From contig PBLA01000007.1 in the NCBI GenBank assembly GCA_002722245.1, forward strand, positions 1-55,722: a stretch of DNA of 55,722 nucleotides, in the 5' to 3' direction. This document shows, piece after piece, positions 5,763 to 18,900 of the stretch. Below the pieces are notes generated by a model that had not been told where the DNA came from, ran no database searches, and worked only from the letters and a program-made list of their open reading frames with translations. Source of the DNA: Flavobacteriales bacterium (lineage in GTDB: Bacteria; Bacteroidota; Bacteroidia; Flavobacteriales_C; GCA-002722245). Position 1 is the stretch's first letter, and each line of letters opens with the position of its first letter. The position numbers were made by a program, and so were the translations under genes.

Positions 5763-6632
5763 TTAAACGACGTGTTTTTCAGCATGATAAGATGATCGAA
5801 CAAGAGGAGAGCTCTCTACGTGTTTAAATCCCTTATCTAACGCATATAAACGATATTGCTCAAATTGCTCAGGGGTTATAAAACTGGCAATTTCCAAATG
5901 ATTAGGTGTTGGCTGTAAATATTGACCTATTGTCACAATATCGACTTGAACAGAAGCTAAATCATCAATGGTTTCATAAATCTCTTCTTCAGATTCTCCT
6001 AGACCAACCATAAAACCAGATTTTGTTCGCATTCCCCCTTTTTTCAAACGAAACAATAATTCTAAACTCCTGTCATATTTTGCCTGAACCCTTACTTGTT
6101 TAGAAAGCCTCCTCACCGTTTCAATGTTGTGAGATACAACCTCTGGTGCAACATCAATAATCTTTTGAAGATCATCCCATTTCCCCATAAAATCACCAAC
6201 AAGAGTTTCCATCGTTGTCCCAGGACTTATTCTTCGCACAGCCTCAACAGTCTTCACCCAATGAGCAGCTCCTCCATCATCTAAATCATCTCGGTCAACA
6301 GAGGTGATAACAGCATGCTTTACTTTCATTGTTTTAATGGATTTTGCAACTTTGACCGGTTCCCATTCATCTAATTCTTCACCTTTACCCGTTTTAACGG
6401 CGCAGAAACCACAACTTCTAGTACAGGTATTCCCTAAAATCATAAACGTAGCAGTACCTGCTCCCCAACATTCTCCCATATTGGGACAGTTACCACTTTG
6501 ACAAATTGTATGAAGATTATTCTCGTCAACCAATTTCCTTACTTTCTTGTACCCTTCACCAATTGGTAATTTAACCCGTAACCATTTTGGTTTTTTGTAC
6601 AACGGTTTTTTATTTCCAATTTCCTTACTCAT
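5763..6632 (-). CDS. lipA: Lipoyl synthase LipA
   Basis: Radical-SAM enzyme of 289 residues that inserts two sulfurs into protein-bound octanoyl groups to make lipoyl cofactor. The auxiliary cluster cysteines are in [12 protein letters not shown] near 44-55. The radical-SAM C-x3-C-x2-C is in CTRSCGFC near 70-77. The diagnostic C-terminal RSSYHA is near 279-284. The ATG is 12 bp downstream of the preceding gene, and the stop is 4 bp before the T9SS cargo gene, so all lie in one leftward transcription unit. No lipB is present in the window. Confidence 0.97.
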
Positions 6633-14582: not shown

Positions 14583-14614
14583 AAAAGGGAATCAATACAA
14601 ATCGATTCCCTTTT
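14583..14614 (-). terminator. Intrinsic terminator after pyk
   Basis: A perfect 11-bp stem (AAAAGGGAATC with GATTCCCTTTT) and a 10-nt loop, with A-runs on the plus strand at 14581-14586 that give a U-tract for leftward transcription. It ends the pyk message before the M42 gene. Confidence 0.85.
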
Positions 14615-14630
14615 AAAACCTATTTTCAAA

Positions 14631-16052
14631 TTAAGCTTGACTTAATTTCAATGTATTTGTTTTTCCTTTTGCCTCTATAGGCATAGAAGCGATATTAATA
14701 AAGAAATCGCCTTTTTTGATTGCTCCCTTTTCCACTAAAGACTCTCTAATATCATCGATGTTTTTATCCGTTGAGGAAGAATCGTCATAGTATACAGCTT
14801 GAACACCCCAAACCAAGTTTAACATATTTAAAATTGCTTTGTTTCTTGTATATACATAGGTAAATGCTCGTGGACGCTGGGATGATATTTTGCGTGCTGT
14901 ATATCCAGATACAGTCATAGTTATAATTGCTTTTGCATTTACACTTTCAGCAAGGTTAACAGCACTAGTACAAATATTATCTGAAATAAACCTTTCCTCT
15001 CTGTAGATAGGCAGGTAATCATGGTTATAAATATCATCGTACTCCTCTACTTTCTTTATAATATTAGACATAGTTTCAACAACCAATCCTGGATGTTTTC
15101 CAACAGACGTCTCTCCAGATAACATAACAGCATCAGCACCATCCATAACTGCATTAGCTACGTCATTAACCTCTGCTCTTGACGGAGTAATTCCATCAAT
15201 CATGCTCTCCATCATTTGAGTTGCGACTATAATTGGTTTAGAAGCCTTTAAACACTTTTTCACCATCATTTTTTGCAAAAGAGGGACATCTTGATAAGGA
15301 ACTTCAATACCTAAATCTCCTCTTGCAACCATAATAGCATCTGTTTCATTTACAATTGCATCAATATCATCAATCGCTTCTGGCTTTTCAATCTTTGCAA
15401 TAATCTTGAGATTTTTTCCAGCAGCTTCTATCAACTCTCTTAATTCGATAATATCTTTGGCTGAACGAACGAATGAAAGTGCCACCCACTCCACATCTTG
15501 AGTAAGAATATATTCTAAATCTTCCTTGTCTTTTTCTGTTAATGAGGGCAAAGAAATTTTTGTATTTGGCAAATTCACACCCTTTTTACTTTTCAATATT
15601 CCTCCGTGCTCTACAATAGCCACTACCTCATTGGTCCCGTTAGAGCTTTTTACCCGAACAGCAAGTTTCCCATCATCAATCAAAATCAACTCACCAGGTT
15701 GAACATCTTGAGCAAAATTTTGATAGGTCATAAATACTTTTTGAGAGGTCCCCTCACATTCTTCATTAGTAAAAATGATTTCATCACCATTAGTGATTTC
15801 ACAGCCTCCATCTTTCATCTCACCAACACGTAACTTCGGACCTTGCAAGTCTGCTAAAACAGCAATGTTTGAATGAAGCTCTTCATTTACTTGTTTCACA
15901 CGCTTGATATTATCACCATGTATGCTGTGGTCTCCATGAGAAAAGTTGATACGACATACGTTCAATCCCTTATAATACATCTCTTTCAATACTTCAACAG
16001 AAGAGGATGCAGGTCCTAACGTTGCTACAATTTTGGTTCTCTTTAAGTCCAT
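14631..16052 (-). CDS. pyk: Pyruvate kinase
   Basis: Glycolytic enzyme (phosphoenolpyruvate + ADP to pyruvate + ATP), 473 residues. The A-domain start TKIVATLGPASS and the substrate loop CRINFSHGDH are at the N-terminus. The catalytic lysine region AKIEKPEAIDDI and the metal/phosphate segment IMVARGDLGIEVP are in the middle. The B domain lies roughly between residues 70 and 170. The C-terminal regulatory domain ends normally. It follows the acpP-fabF-rnc cluster but has its own -7 box and terminator, so it is at least partly an independent unit. Confidence 0.97.
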   Translation of the reverse strand: MDLKRTKIVATLGPASSSVEVLKEMYYKGLNVCRINFSHGDHSIHGDNIKRVKQVNEELHSNIAVLADLQGPKLRVGEMKDGGCEITNGDEIIFTNEECEGTSQKVFMTYQNFAQDVQPGELILIDDGKLAVRVKSSNGTNEVVAIVEHGGILKSKKGVNLPNTKISLPSLTEKDKEDLEYILTQDVEWVALSFVRSAKDIIELRELIEAAGKNLKIIAKIEKPEAIDDIDAIVNETDAIMVARGDLGIEVPYQDVPLLQKMMVKKCLKASKPIIVATQMMESMIDGITPSRAEVNDVANAVMDGADAVMLSGETSVGKHPGLVVETMSNIIKKVEEYDDIYNHDYLPIYREERFISDNICTSAVNLAESVNAKAIITMTVSGYTARKISSQRPRAFTYVYTRNKAILNMLNLVWGVQAVYYDDSSSTDKNIDDIRESLVEKGAIKKGDFFINIASMPIEAKGKTNTLKLSQA

Positions 16053-16177: not shown

Positions 16178-16594
16178 CTAAAAAAGAAGATTATTTCTAC
16201 TTTTCAATTCCTTAGGATTTATCGCAATAGCAGTAAGGACAGAAGGTATTTTTCGGAGTTCATTTTTAAAGTTATCCATTTCTTTATTTGACATTGGACC
16301 CCAATATTGAATGAAATAGTCAATTTGCTTTAGTTCAGGAATAAAATAACCGAAATTACATCGATTAGCTATTAAATGAAAAGTAGTGTAACTTTCTTCA
16401 TCATCAAACCTATATAGACTAAATTTCCCTTTTTTTTGAGGCCCAAAAGACAAATCAATATCATCAACTCGCTCTAAATCTAATTCAAATTGCTGATTCA
16501 TTCCCCAAGCCAATCGATAATTAGCAACGTGACTTGAAACACCTAACAAGAAAAAGTCAAAATCATATTCTAGCTCAAGTACTAACTTACTCAT
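16178..16594 (-). CDS. IPExxxVDY family protein
   Basis: Small cytoplasmic protein of 138 residues with the family signature in the form IPELKQIDY (the valine position is isoleucine), followed by FIQYWG. The family is restricted to Bacteroidota, and its function is not known to me. It overlaps the 3' end of rnc by 8 bp, so the two are co-transcribed. The link to rnc is often seen in this phylum (recalled, not checked here). Confidence 0.85.
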   Translation of the reverse strand: MSKLVLELEYDFDFFLLGVSSHVANYRLAWGMNQQFELDLERVDDIDLSFGPQKKGKFSLYRFDDEESYTTFHLIANRCNFGYFIPELKQIDYFIQYWGPMSNKEMDNFKNELRKIPSVLTAIAINPKELKSRNNLLF

Positions 16595-17315
16595 CTAAAA
16601 TTTTAAATTGTTTACAAAACTCCTCCGCGGCTTTTTGTTCTGCCTTTTTCTTAGATTGCTCTTTTCCTCTTGCAACCTCTTTGCCATCTAACTTCACGCA
16701 GGCTTCAAAAACTTTTTCTCGACCTTCTCCTTTTTCACTAAGAATTTCAAAAATTAAATCTCTTTTTTCTTTTTGCGCCCACTCTATTATTCTGGACTTA
16801 AAATTAGTTTCTTCTTTCTCAAGTTTTTCTAATAAAATATATGGATGAATAACTCGCTCTAATATAAACTTCTCAGCTGCTTTGGTCCCTTTATCCAGAT
16901 AAATAGCCCCTATTAAAGCCTCAAAAGCATTCCCATAAATAGAATCAGTCTTACTTTTTTTATCCAATCGAGCAATAACTATATGATCTAATCCAATTTT
17001 TTTCGCCAAATCATTTAATGAATGACGACTTACAATTTTTGACCGCATTTTAGTTAAAAAGCCTTCATCCTCATTTGGATAAACCTTAAAAAGGTAGTCT
17101 GCAACAACAGCTCCTAACACAGCATCTCCTAGAAATTCAAGACGCTCATTACTTTTCTTGTAGGAAGAGGTGTGATCATGTACTGCAGACTTATGAACCA
17201 ATGCTCTTTCAAACAAAAAAACATCGTTGGGATAAAATCCAACGATGTTTTTAATTTTTTTTGCAAGATCGTTTTTGTTTGTAAAAAAGGACCCTAGTAT
17301 GGTTTTGAAATTCAA
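16587..17315 (-). CDS. rnc: Ribonuclease III
   Basis: Double-strand RNA endonuclease of 242 residues that matures rRNA and cleaves structured mRNAs. The catalytic signature ERLEFLGDAVLG is near 57-68, the second acidic site in FEALIGAIYLDKG near 131-143, and a C-terminal dsRNA-binding domain runs from about residue 170 (KSRIIEWAQ to AEEFCKQF). Initiation is from a TTG at 17315, only 2 bp after the fabF TAG; no ATG occurs before the conserved core. Codons 22-36 form a perfect hairpin with a following U-tract (17217-17252), described separately. It is third in the acpP-fabF-rnc order. Confidence 0.95.
   Translation of the reverse strand: MNFKTILGSFFTNKNDLAKKIKNIVGFYPNDVFLFERALVHKSAVHDHTSSYKKSNERLEFLGDAVLGAVVADYLFKVYPNEDEGFLTKMRSKIVSRHSLNDLAKKIGLDHIVIARLDKKSKTDSIYGNAFEALIGAIYLDKGTKAAEKFILERVIHPYILLEKLEKEETNFKSRIIEWAQKEKRDLIFEILSEKGEGREKVFEACVKLDGKEVARGKEQSKKKAEQKAAEEFCKQFKILDE
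17217..17252 (-). other. Perfect terminator-like hairpin inside the rnc coding region
   Basis: Two perfect 14-nt arms (17239-17252 and 17217-17230) enclose an 8-nt loop. In the direction of rnc transcription the second arm ends in a run of seven U (17221-17215). The arms encode the ordinary RNase III N-terminal residues around NIVGFYPNDVF, so this is a structure superimposed on coding sequence. It begins about 63 nt after the TTG start. It could act as an attenuator or as an RNase III cleavage site for autoregulation; neither is proven. Confidence 0.75.
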
Positions 17316-17317
17316 AA

Positions 17318-18580
17318 CTAGCCTCTATACTTTTTTAAAACGATCGAGGCATTATGACCTCCAAATCCAAATGTATTTGTCATTGCAACTTCCACTGTTC
17401 GTTCTTGACCATTATTCAAAGTAAGGTTTAACTTACTGTCAATATTTTCGTCCGAAGTAGAGTGGTTAATTGTTGGAGGAATAAAATCTTCCTCAACGGC
17501 TTTAATCGTTGCAATAGCTTCAATTGCACCAGCTGCTCCAAGTAAATGCCCAGTCATGGACTTCGTTGAACTAATATTCAAATCGTAGGCCTTTTCTCCA
17601 AAAAGCTTTTGAATAGCAGTTAATTCAGCCACATCTCCTAGGGGAGTTGAAGTTCCATGTACATTGATGTAATCCACATCATTTACAGTTAACTCCGCAT
17701 CTTCTAACGCATTTTTCATAACATTCCTAGCCCCAAGACCTTCAGGGTGAGGAGCAGTCATATGGTGAGCATCTGCAGACAGACCACCACCAACTATTTC
17801 AGCGTAAATTTTGGCACCTCTAGCTTTTGCATGCTCATATTCTTCTAAAATGATAGCACCGGCTCCTTCTCCCAAAACAAAGCCATCTCTTGTTGCATCA
17901 AACGGTCGAGAAGCAGTTGCAGGGTTATCGTTATTAGTAGAAAGTGCATGACACGCATTGAATCCCCCTATACCTGTTTCATTCACAGCCGCTTCAGAAC
18001 CACCACTTACAATAACATCCGCTTTTCCTAATCTTATGTAAGTAAACGCGTCTATTAGTGCATTGCTGGACGATGCACAGGCAGAAACCGTAGTATAATT
18101 AGGCCCTCTAAATCCATGTTTAATTGAAATATTACCAGGAGCAATATCAGCAATCATTTTCGGAATAAAGAATGGATTAAATTTAGGGCCTGTTTGATTC
18201 TCTCTCGCTTTCAATAGCGCTTGAGCTTCATCTTGAAAGGTTTCTAAACCACCTATACCAGACCCCCAAATCACACCTACTCTATCGGGATCAAAATTAC
18301 CTTCAACCAAACCAGCATCATCAATAGCCTCATCAGTAACCACCATAGCATACTGACTAAACTTATCCATTCTTCTTGCTTCTTTTCTGTGAATGAATTC
18401 ATTCACATCAAAGCTTTTTAATTCGCAAGCAAATTGGGTTTTGTGATGTGTTGGATCAAAATAGGTAATTCTTGCCGCACCGCTAACCCCTTTTTTTAGG
18501 GACTCCCAATACTCTGGAAGTGTATTCCCTATAGGAGTAAGTGCACCAAGTCCAGTGACAACAACTCTCTTTAACTCCAT
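17318..18580 (-). CDS. fabF: Beta-ketoacyl-ACP synthase II (FabF)
   Basis: Condensing enzyme of type II fatty-acid synthesis, 420 residues. The catalytic cysteine is in VSACASSSNA near 165. The two histidines are in HGTSTPLGD near 305 and in TGHLLGAAG near 342. The glycine-rich C-terminal NTFGFGGHNAS is intact. It is located 24 bp downstream of acpP, the usual pairing that supplies its acyl-carrier substrate, and is followed immediately by rnc. Confidence 0.97.
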   Translation of the reverse strand: MELKRVVVTGLGALTPIGNTLPEYWESLKKGVSGAARITYFDPTHHKTQFACELKSFDVNEFIHRKEARRMDKFSQYAMVVTDEAIDDAGLVEGNFDPDRVGVIWGSGIGGLETFQDEAQALLKARENQTGPKFNPFFIPKMIADIAPGNISIKHGFRGPNYTTVSACASSSNALIDAFTYIRLGKADVIVSGGSEAAVNETGIGGFNACHALSTNNDNPATASRPFDATRDGFVLGEGAGAIILEEYEHAKARGAKIYAEIVGGGLSADAHHMTAPHPEGLGARNVMKNALEDAELTVNDVDYINVHGTSTPLGDVAELTAIQKLFGEKAYDLNISSTKSMTGHLLGAAGAIEAIATIKAVEEDFIPPTINHSTSDENIDSKLNLTLNNGQERTVEVAMTNTFGFGGHNASIVLKKYRG

Positions 18581-18604: not shown

Positions 18605-18841
18605 TTACTTTGCGTTCTCTTCGATGTATCCAATCGCTTCCTTTACAGTCCCGATTTTTTCTGCTTGATCATCTGGAATAGCAATATTAAATTCTTTCTC
18701 AAATTCCATGATAAGCTCAACAGTGTCTAAAGAGTCAGCTCCTAGGTCATTTGTAAAACTTGCCTCTGGTGCAACTTCACTTTCATCAACACCTAACTTA
18801 TCAACGATAATTGCTTTTACTCTTGATTCGATATCAGACAT
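18605..18841 (-). CDS. acpP: Acyl carrier protein
   Basis: 78 residues from the ATG at 18841 ([11 protein letters not shown]). A longer frame to 18871 begins at a non-ATG codon and would add unlike residues. The phosphopantetheine attachment serine is in [10 protein letters not shown]. It is small, acidic and helical. It carries growing acyl chains for FabF encoded next to it. A good promoter lies 28 bp upstream, making it the first gene of the acpP-fabF-rnc unit. Confidence 0.97.
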
Positions 18842-18868: not shown

Positions 18869-18900
18869 CAAAGAAAAACATTTCTTGATAATTATTCAAA
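18869..18900 (-). promoter_or_regulatory. Promoter of the acpP-fabF-rnc unit
   Basis: On the minus strand TTTG (18900-18897) is followed after 20 bp by TTTCTTTG (18876-18869), one mismatch from TAnnTTTG. It lies 27 bp upstream of the acpP ATG, a normal leader length. Confidence 0.55.

Follow-up and report, generated by a model that had tools for sequence, protein, structure and literature searches.

We observed that rnc, the gene for RNase III, carries a hairpin with a U-tract near the start of its coding sequence, and that comparable elements recur at the same place in other Bacteroidota. The gene lies in a stretch of 55,722 nucleotides from a Flavobacteriales bacterium, the whole of which was analysed and is referred to here as the window. 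On the sequence comparisons given below, we estimate a probability of about two in three that the element is a partial intrinsic terminator (i.e. an attenuator) inside the acpP-fabF-rnc operon, termination itself being predicted. Such an element would probably limit the output of RNase III relative to the upstream fatty-acid genes. The hairpin had been pointed out in an initial annotation of the window, which did not see the recurrence of the element across the phylum.

The genes around rnc are all on the minus strand, in the order acpP-fabF-rnc-(IPExxxVDY)-pyk. The start of acpP (18605..18841) was set at an ATG from the sequence itself (the longest ORF starts at 18871). It is followed by fabF (17318..18580; profile match), whose stop lies 2 nt before the TTG start of rnc at 17315. 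The rnc gene (16587..17315) encodes 242 aa, and its identification as RNase III in the initial annotation was borne out by TIGR02191 (score 208 bits, cut-off 166). The TTG is kept in all five species of the genus. The end of rnc is overlapped by the downstream IPExxxVDY-family gene (16178..16594), and the last co-oriented gene is the pyruvate kinase gene, pyk (14631..16052). An ordinary intergenic terminator after pyk (14583..14614, minus strand, -20.0 kcal/mol) served as a yardstick for the rnc element. The congeners keep the acpP-fabF-rnc-pyk order where the contig reaches that far. Since fabF and rnc abut without intergenic space, an intergenic terminator could not fit ahead of rnc, which would account for the placement of the element in coding sequence.

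A scan for the Bacteroidota promoter motif gave counts at chance level. A separate 7-bp hairpin, GTTTTGA-ATT-TCAAAAC (17302-17318, minus strand), spans the end of the fabF stop and the rnc TTG, and by eye it was absent in the congeners inspected. Elsewhere in the window, a repeat scan found a long imperfect palindrome at 5786-5837 (30-nt overlapping arms, 70% complementary).

The rnc hairpin occupies codons 22-33, and its U-tract extends to codon 35. The inverted-repeat scan and folding agreed with the earlier description of two exactly complementary 14-nt arms around an 8-nt loop: the arms, at 17217-17230 and 17239-17252, are 100% complementary. The 5' arm AAAAACATCGTTGG (17239..17252, minus strand, codons 22-26) is the same in five of five genus members except for a covarying C/T at 17244. 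In the loop ATTTTATC (17231..17238, minus strand), the wobble positions of Gly26, Phe27 and Tyr28 differ among species. The 3' arm CCAACGATGTTTTT (17217..17230, minus strand) runs from Pro29 (CCC) to Phe33 and includes the D31N site, the G/A of which is the pairing partner of the 5'-arm C/T. The U-tract UUUUUUUGUUU (17211..17221, minus strand) consists of five stem U followed by UUGUUU. It is identical in all five species, and the 3' ends of the transcript are predicted here. Seven U had been said to follow the stem; the U-tract stands, but five of those in the 17221-17215 run (17221-17217) are paired within the stem to the 5'-arm AAAAA and had been counted twice, and what lies beyond the stem is UU-G-UUU.

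The folding energy on the sense (-) strand was about -18.7 to -19.1 kcal/mol (z = -5.0), and none of 200 shuffles was as stable. Only 5 of the 14 pairs are G-C, and a few extra outer pairs extend the stem to about 18 bp in the window genus. Since the outer pairs are A-U, the antisense strand takes a similar shape. The element has the parts of an intrinsic terminator, namely a stable G-C-containing stem-loop with a loop of 3-9 nt, and a U-rich tract right after the stem (a tract that is present in all three of the stem arrangements described below). An Rfam scan returned only sub-threshold chance matches.

We further estimated how unusual such a structure is within the genome. When rnc codons 19-38 were resampled synonymously with the codon usage of this genome, stems of at least 14 bp were found in 0 of 20,000 sequences, the longest being 10 bp against the 14 observed. 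Perfect stems of at least 11 bp with at least 4 G-C pairs were also counted in 20 sampled stretches (432 kb, 87.5% coding). This gave 16 hairpins, with 13 intergenic, one at a gene edge and two in coding sequence. The rnc hairpin was the sole one of at least 12 bp within coding sequence, the others of that length being intergenic. Several of the intergenic hairpins have an A-stem-U shape like that of the rnc element, and three that were measured had energies of -19.5 to -26.6 kcal/mol, against -18.7 for rnc. The rnc dyad motif is present in a single copy in the genome even when 3 mismatches are allowed, and therefore does not represent a repeat family or a regulon.

The hairpin is kept by selection in the window genus (g1) and is not due to chance, as judged from four congeners (the members of the genus located by name are metagenome assemblies). 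Their rnc proteins are 72-81% identical, and third-position identity to the rnc of the window is near 50%. The initial annotation had proposed looking in relatives for pairing kept through compensatory changes, and this was what we observed. All four congeners have a perfect 14-bp stem and an identical U-tract, and in two species (which are close relatives) ATC->ATT occurs together with GAT->AAT, so that a C-G pair becomes U-A. The second of these changes is non-synonymous (D31N). Of the 13 synonymous codons within codons 22-35, 9 are invariant, compared with 35 of 143 in the rest of rnc (P = 0.0016). The codons that do vary are those of the loop (26-28) and of the covarying pair (24/31), and the arm wobbles are frozen. 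The five rnc genes of the genus have five CCC prolines in all, every one at codon 29. The covariation statistic for the five sequences was equalled in 46 of 500 shuffles and is weak alone, so the case for selection rests on the frozen arm wobbles and on the wider survey.

For this survey, rnc loci were gathered by protein similarity and by a family search over 296 class genomes, giving 198 distinct anchored loci. Searches at the order level added nothing, the order comprising only the 10 genomes of this family. The strict scan asked for a stem of at least 8 bp with at least 4 G-C pairs and at most 1 G-U, a loop of 3-9 nt, and at least 6 T in the 8 positions after the stem. Applied to the 153 kb of rnc from the 198 loci, it gave 34 sense and 7 antisense matches, and no sense match lay more than 40 nt from the G-F-x-P glycine. 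The element was present in 33 loci, whereas resampling each gene synonymously from its own codons gave 0.35 expected (maximum 2 in 100 runs); these counts are of loci and not of independent events. A relaxed scan gave 38 loci with a match near the site and 3 matches elsewhere (null mean 1.0, maximum 4). In 445 kb of ORFs around these rnc genes, rnc contributed 24 sense matches, and all the remaining ORFs together contributed 2.

The remaining 165 of the 198 rnc genes do not have the element under the strict criterion. These loci showed no excess folding in 5' rnc; the minimum of the gene falls there in 26 of 165, about what is expected by chance, and there is therefore no phylum-wide tendency to fold near the rnc start. 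The Bacteroidales-type pattern was absent from 396 sampled class genomes, so this version is confined to the lineages recovered by the protein-similarity search. In all 33 carriers fabF is directly upstream, with 60-93 nt from the fabF stop to the glycine codon. None of the 14 rnc genes without an upstream fabF carries the element (too few cases to count alone).

We found three ARRANGEMENTS of the stem, distributed over four clades that stand apart in the rnc tree (g1, the sister genus g2, the carriers of family f32, and the Bacteroidales carriers). In g1 and the Bacteroidales group the stem is in the same register: the N-I-x-G codons pair with the P-x-N-I codons, and the U are supplied by the following F-L-F/Y codons. 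This in-register type may have had a single origin with losses. The genus g2 has a different, more upstream stem of 10-11 bp, GACCCGGTTA-loop-TTAACCGGG, and its UUUUUU comes from G-F-F-P. A third stem, reaching 20 bp, is found in family f32, where 2 of the 3 carriers likewise use GFFP. The g2 and f32 stems sit 10-20 nt further upstream than the in-register stem, and the U-tract still follows.

When we examined 40 sequences picked by the peptide rather than by the hairpin, the in-register stem paired in 90.3% of cells, against 48-66% when the stem was slid. The compensatory pattern extended in the same register to the related Bacteroidales: both-side changes occurred at 7 of 15 pairs, and the covariation score was reached by 0 of 500 shuffles (relatedness remains in this control). 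Phenylalanine at +7, whose UUU lies in the tract, was present at 25 of 27 in-register loci and at 11 of 137 loci without the hairpin (P = 8e-19, uncorrected for kinship).

Other structures were also seen at or near these loci. At the same place in rnc, locus L198 (family f14) has a -29.8 kcal/mol hairpin, AAGGCTTGCG...CGCAAGCCTT, without a strong U-tract; it could represent a fourth arrangement, or else a structure of the RNase III type. L138 of family f38, and also L139 of the same family, show G-C-rich pairing in register (TTGCTGGGC...GCCCGGCAA) over the same codons without a U-tract, which may be a decayed state of the element or a precursor of it. A predicted non-rnc ORF at L037 has, on its antisense strand, a 27-bp hairpin with a U-tract, AGCGAAATGTGAAAAGCGAAAAGCGAAATG..., possibly a repeat element. 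The RNase III of the window genus (L001-L005) is about 50% identical to that of Bacteroidales and only 36-42% identical to that of the sister genus (L086-L090), and g2 sits on a long branch of the rnc tree (1.54). This may reflect fast evolution in g2 or gene transfer.

An attenuator would fit the arrangement of the operon. Acyl carrier protein is abundant in cells, and RNase III is scarce. Polymerase arriving from the strongly expressed acpP-fabF would transcribe the start of rnc, where the hairpin would form and the U-tract would release a fraction of the polymerases. The predicted outcome is plenty of acpP-fabF mRNA, stable at its 3' end, and only small amounts of full-length rnc. A ribosome that starts early at the weak TTG may cover the 5' arm and pre-empt the hairpin, and would in this way raise read-through.

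Some observations count against an attenuator. With only five of fourteen pairs being G-C, the stem could be melted by a translating ribosome. The peptide N-I-x-G-F-x-P-x-N-I itself predisposes its codons to pair. The element is also not universal, as seen from the 165 genes that fail the strict criterion and from the lack of any Bacteroidales-type match in the 396 class genomes sampled.

The initial annotation had named a self-cleavage site or an attenuator and made no choice between them. The U-tract and the short g2 stem favour the attenuator, and self-cleavage is left as the main rival or as an added role. If the hairpin were an autoregulatory RNase III site, excess enzyme would cut it within its own coding region and start decay of the mRNA. 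There are precedents for this, since in both S. aureus and Streptomyces the RNase III coding sequence is cut by the enzyme itself (PMC3386247; review PMC10126417). The stem is double-stranded in the rnc transcript, with 14 bp and a few outer pairs, and that such hairpins are far commoner in rnc than in other genes would also fit. However, a cleavage site needs no U-tract. Here the tract is kept and shifts along with the stem, so that it comes directly after the stem in the displaced arrangements too, and for this reason we favour the attenuator. The strict scan demands a U-tract, but in an earlier survey that was blind to the tail nearly all hairpins near the site had at least 6 T of 8. Stem length argues in the same direction, since the g2 stem, at 10-11 bp, is short for RNase III. 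The roughly two helical turns or extended irregular helix of an RNase III site were not seen in the 14-bp stem of the window or in g2, and a length of 20 bp was reached only in f32. Short stems (10-11 bp) are poor substrates of RNase III. The absence of the element from all 14 rnc genes without an upstream fabF, although these are few cases, also speaks against a cleavage site, as does position: in S. aureus the site, a long irregular helix, lies near nt 296, as against nt 64-99 here. We therefore regard self-cleavage by itself as unlikely, while a double role, as terminator and RNase III self-cleavage site, is possible from this analysis.

It is very improbable that the dyad acts at the level of DNA, either as the operator of a DNA-binding protein or as a site blocking antisense transcription. 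The sequence is symmetric, a DNA dyad would likewise show paired changes, and in g1 the antisense strand also has a U-tract; however, the genome has a single copy (up to 3 mismatches allowed), unrelated sequences occupy the same place in other clades, and g2 has the U-tract in the sense direction only. More improbable still is a functionless by-product of a conserved N-I-x-G-F-x-P-x-N-I peptide that forces self-complementary codons, for even though this motif puts GG and CC about 8 nt apart, its AAT-ATT codons are self-complementary and in-register pairing without a U-tract occurs elsewhere (e.g. L138), the idea is contradicted by the 0.35 loci from own-codon resampling against 33 observed, by loop wobbles that vary when arm wobbles do not, by g2 and f32 hairpins built from other codons, and by a covariation score above all 500 shuffles.

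The attenuator reading can be set beside known systems. That internal intrinsic terminators can set operon stoichiometry is established in Clostridia, in the ABC importer operons of Ruminiclostridium cellulolyticum (PMC9045158). The rnc element resembles these as a stem-loop between a high upstream and a lower downstream gene of one operon, with termination predicted here. The R. cellulolyticum elements are intergenic, whereas the rnc element lies wholly within conserved coding sequence, where the choice of amino acids seems to have been adjusted to accommodate it. As cited in PMC3386247, E. coli rncO is a hairpin in the rnc leader that is cleaved by RNase III (Matsunaga 1996). Like the present element, it is a hairpin of the rnc mRNA that keeps RNase III in check (a role that is predicted here), but going by that citation it lies in the 5' untranslated leader of another operon, while our element is rnc codons 22-35 and terminator-shaped. 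The S. aureus enzyme cuts its own coding sequence at about nt 296 in a long irregular helix for which no terminator shape is described (PMC3386247), and coding-region autoregulation by RNase III is also cited there for S. coelicolor absB; unlike the S. aureus site, the rnc element is a short perfect stem with a U-tract near the rnc start. Our literature search found no paper joining Bacteroides, rnc, fabF and termination, and nothing relevant on rnc with acpP and fabF. The main text of the B. thetaiotaomicron atlas papers does not discuss the site or mention fabF, and that of the 2020 paper does not mention rnc either.

A broader proposal is that, in several lineages of Bacteroidota, an attenuator sensitive to translation has arisen repeatedly within the rnc coding sequence. 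The RNA signal would have shaped the protein (Phe after N-I, GFFP, D31N), and termination, possibly together with self-cleavage, would keep RNase III scarce in an acpP-fabF operon. We hold this proposal tentatively, at somewhat worse than even odds. Terminator-like signals in coding sequence are rare, with rnc accounting for 24 of the 26 sense matches in 445 kb of related-locus ORFs. If the signal is indeed recurrent in the same codons, it would show how an operon without intergenic space can tune abundant (acpP-fabF) against scarce (rnc) products. It would add a third design for the control of RNase III beside the leader hairpin of E. coli and the cuts within coding sequence in S. aureus and Streptomyces, and it suggests that an RNA signal can influence the residues of the protein in which it is embedded.
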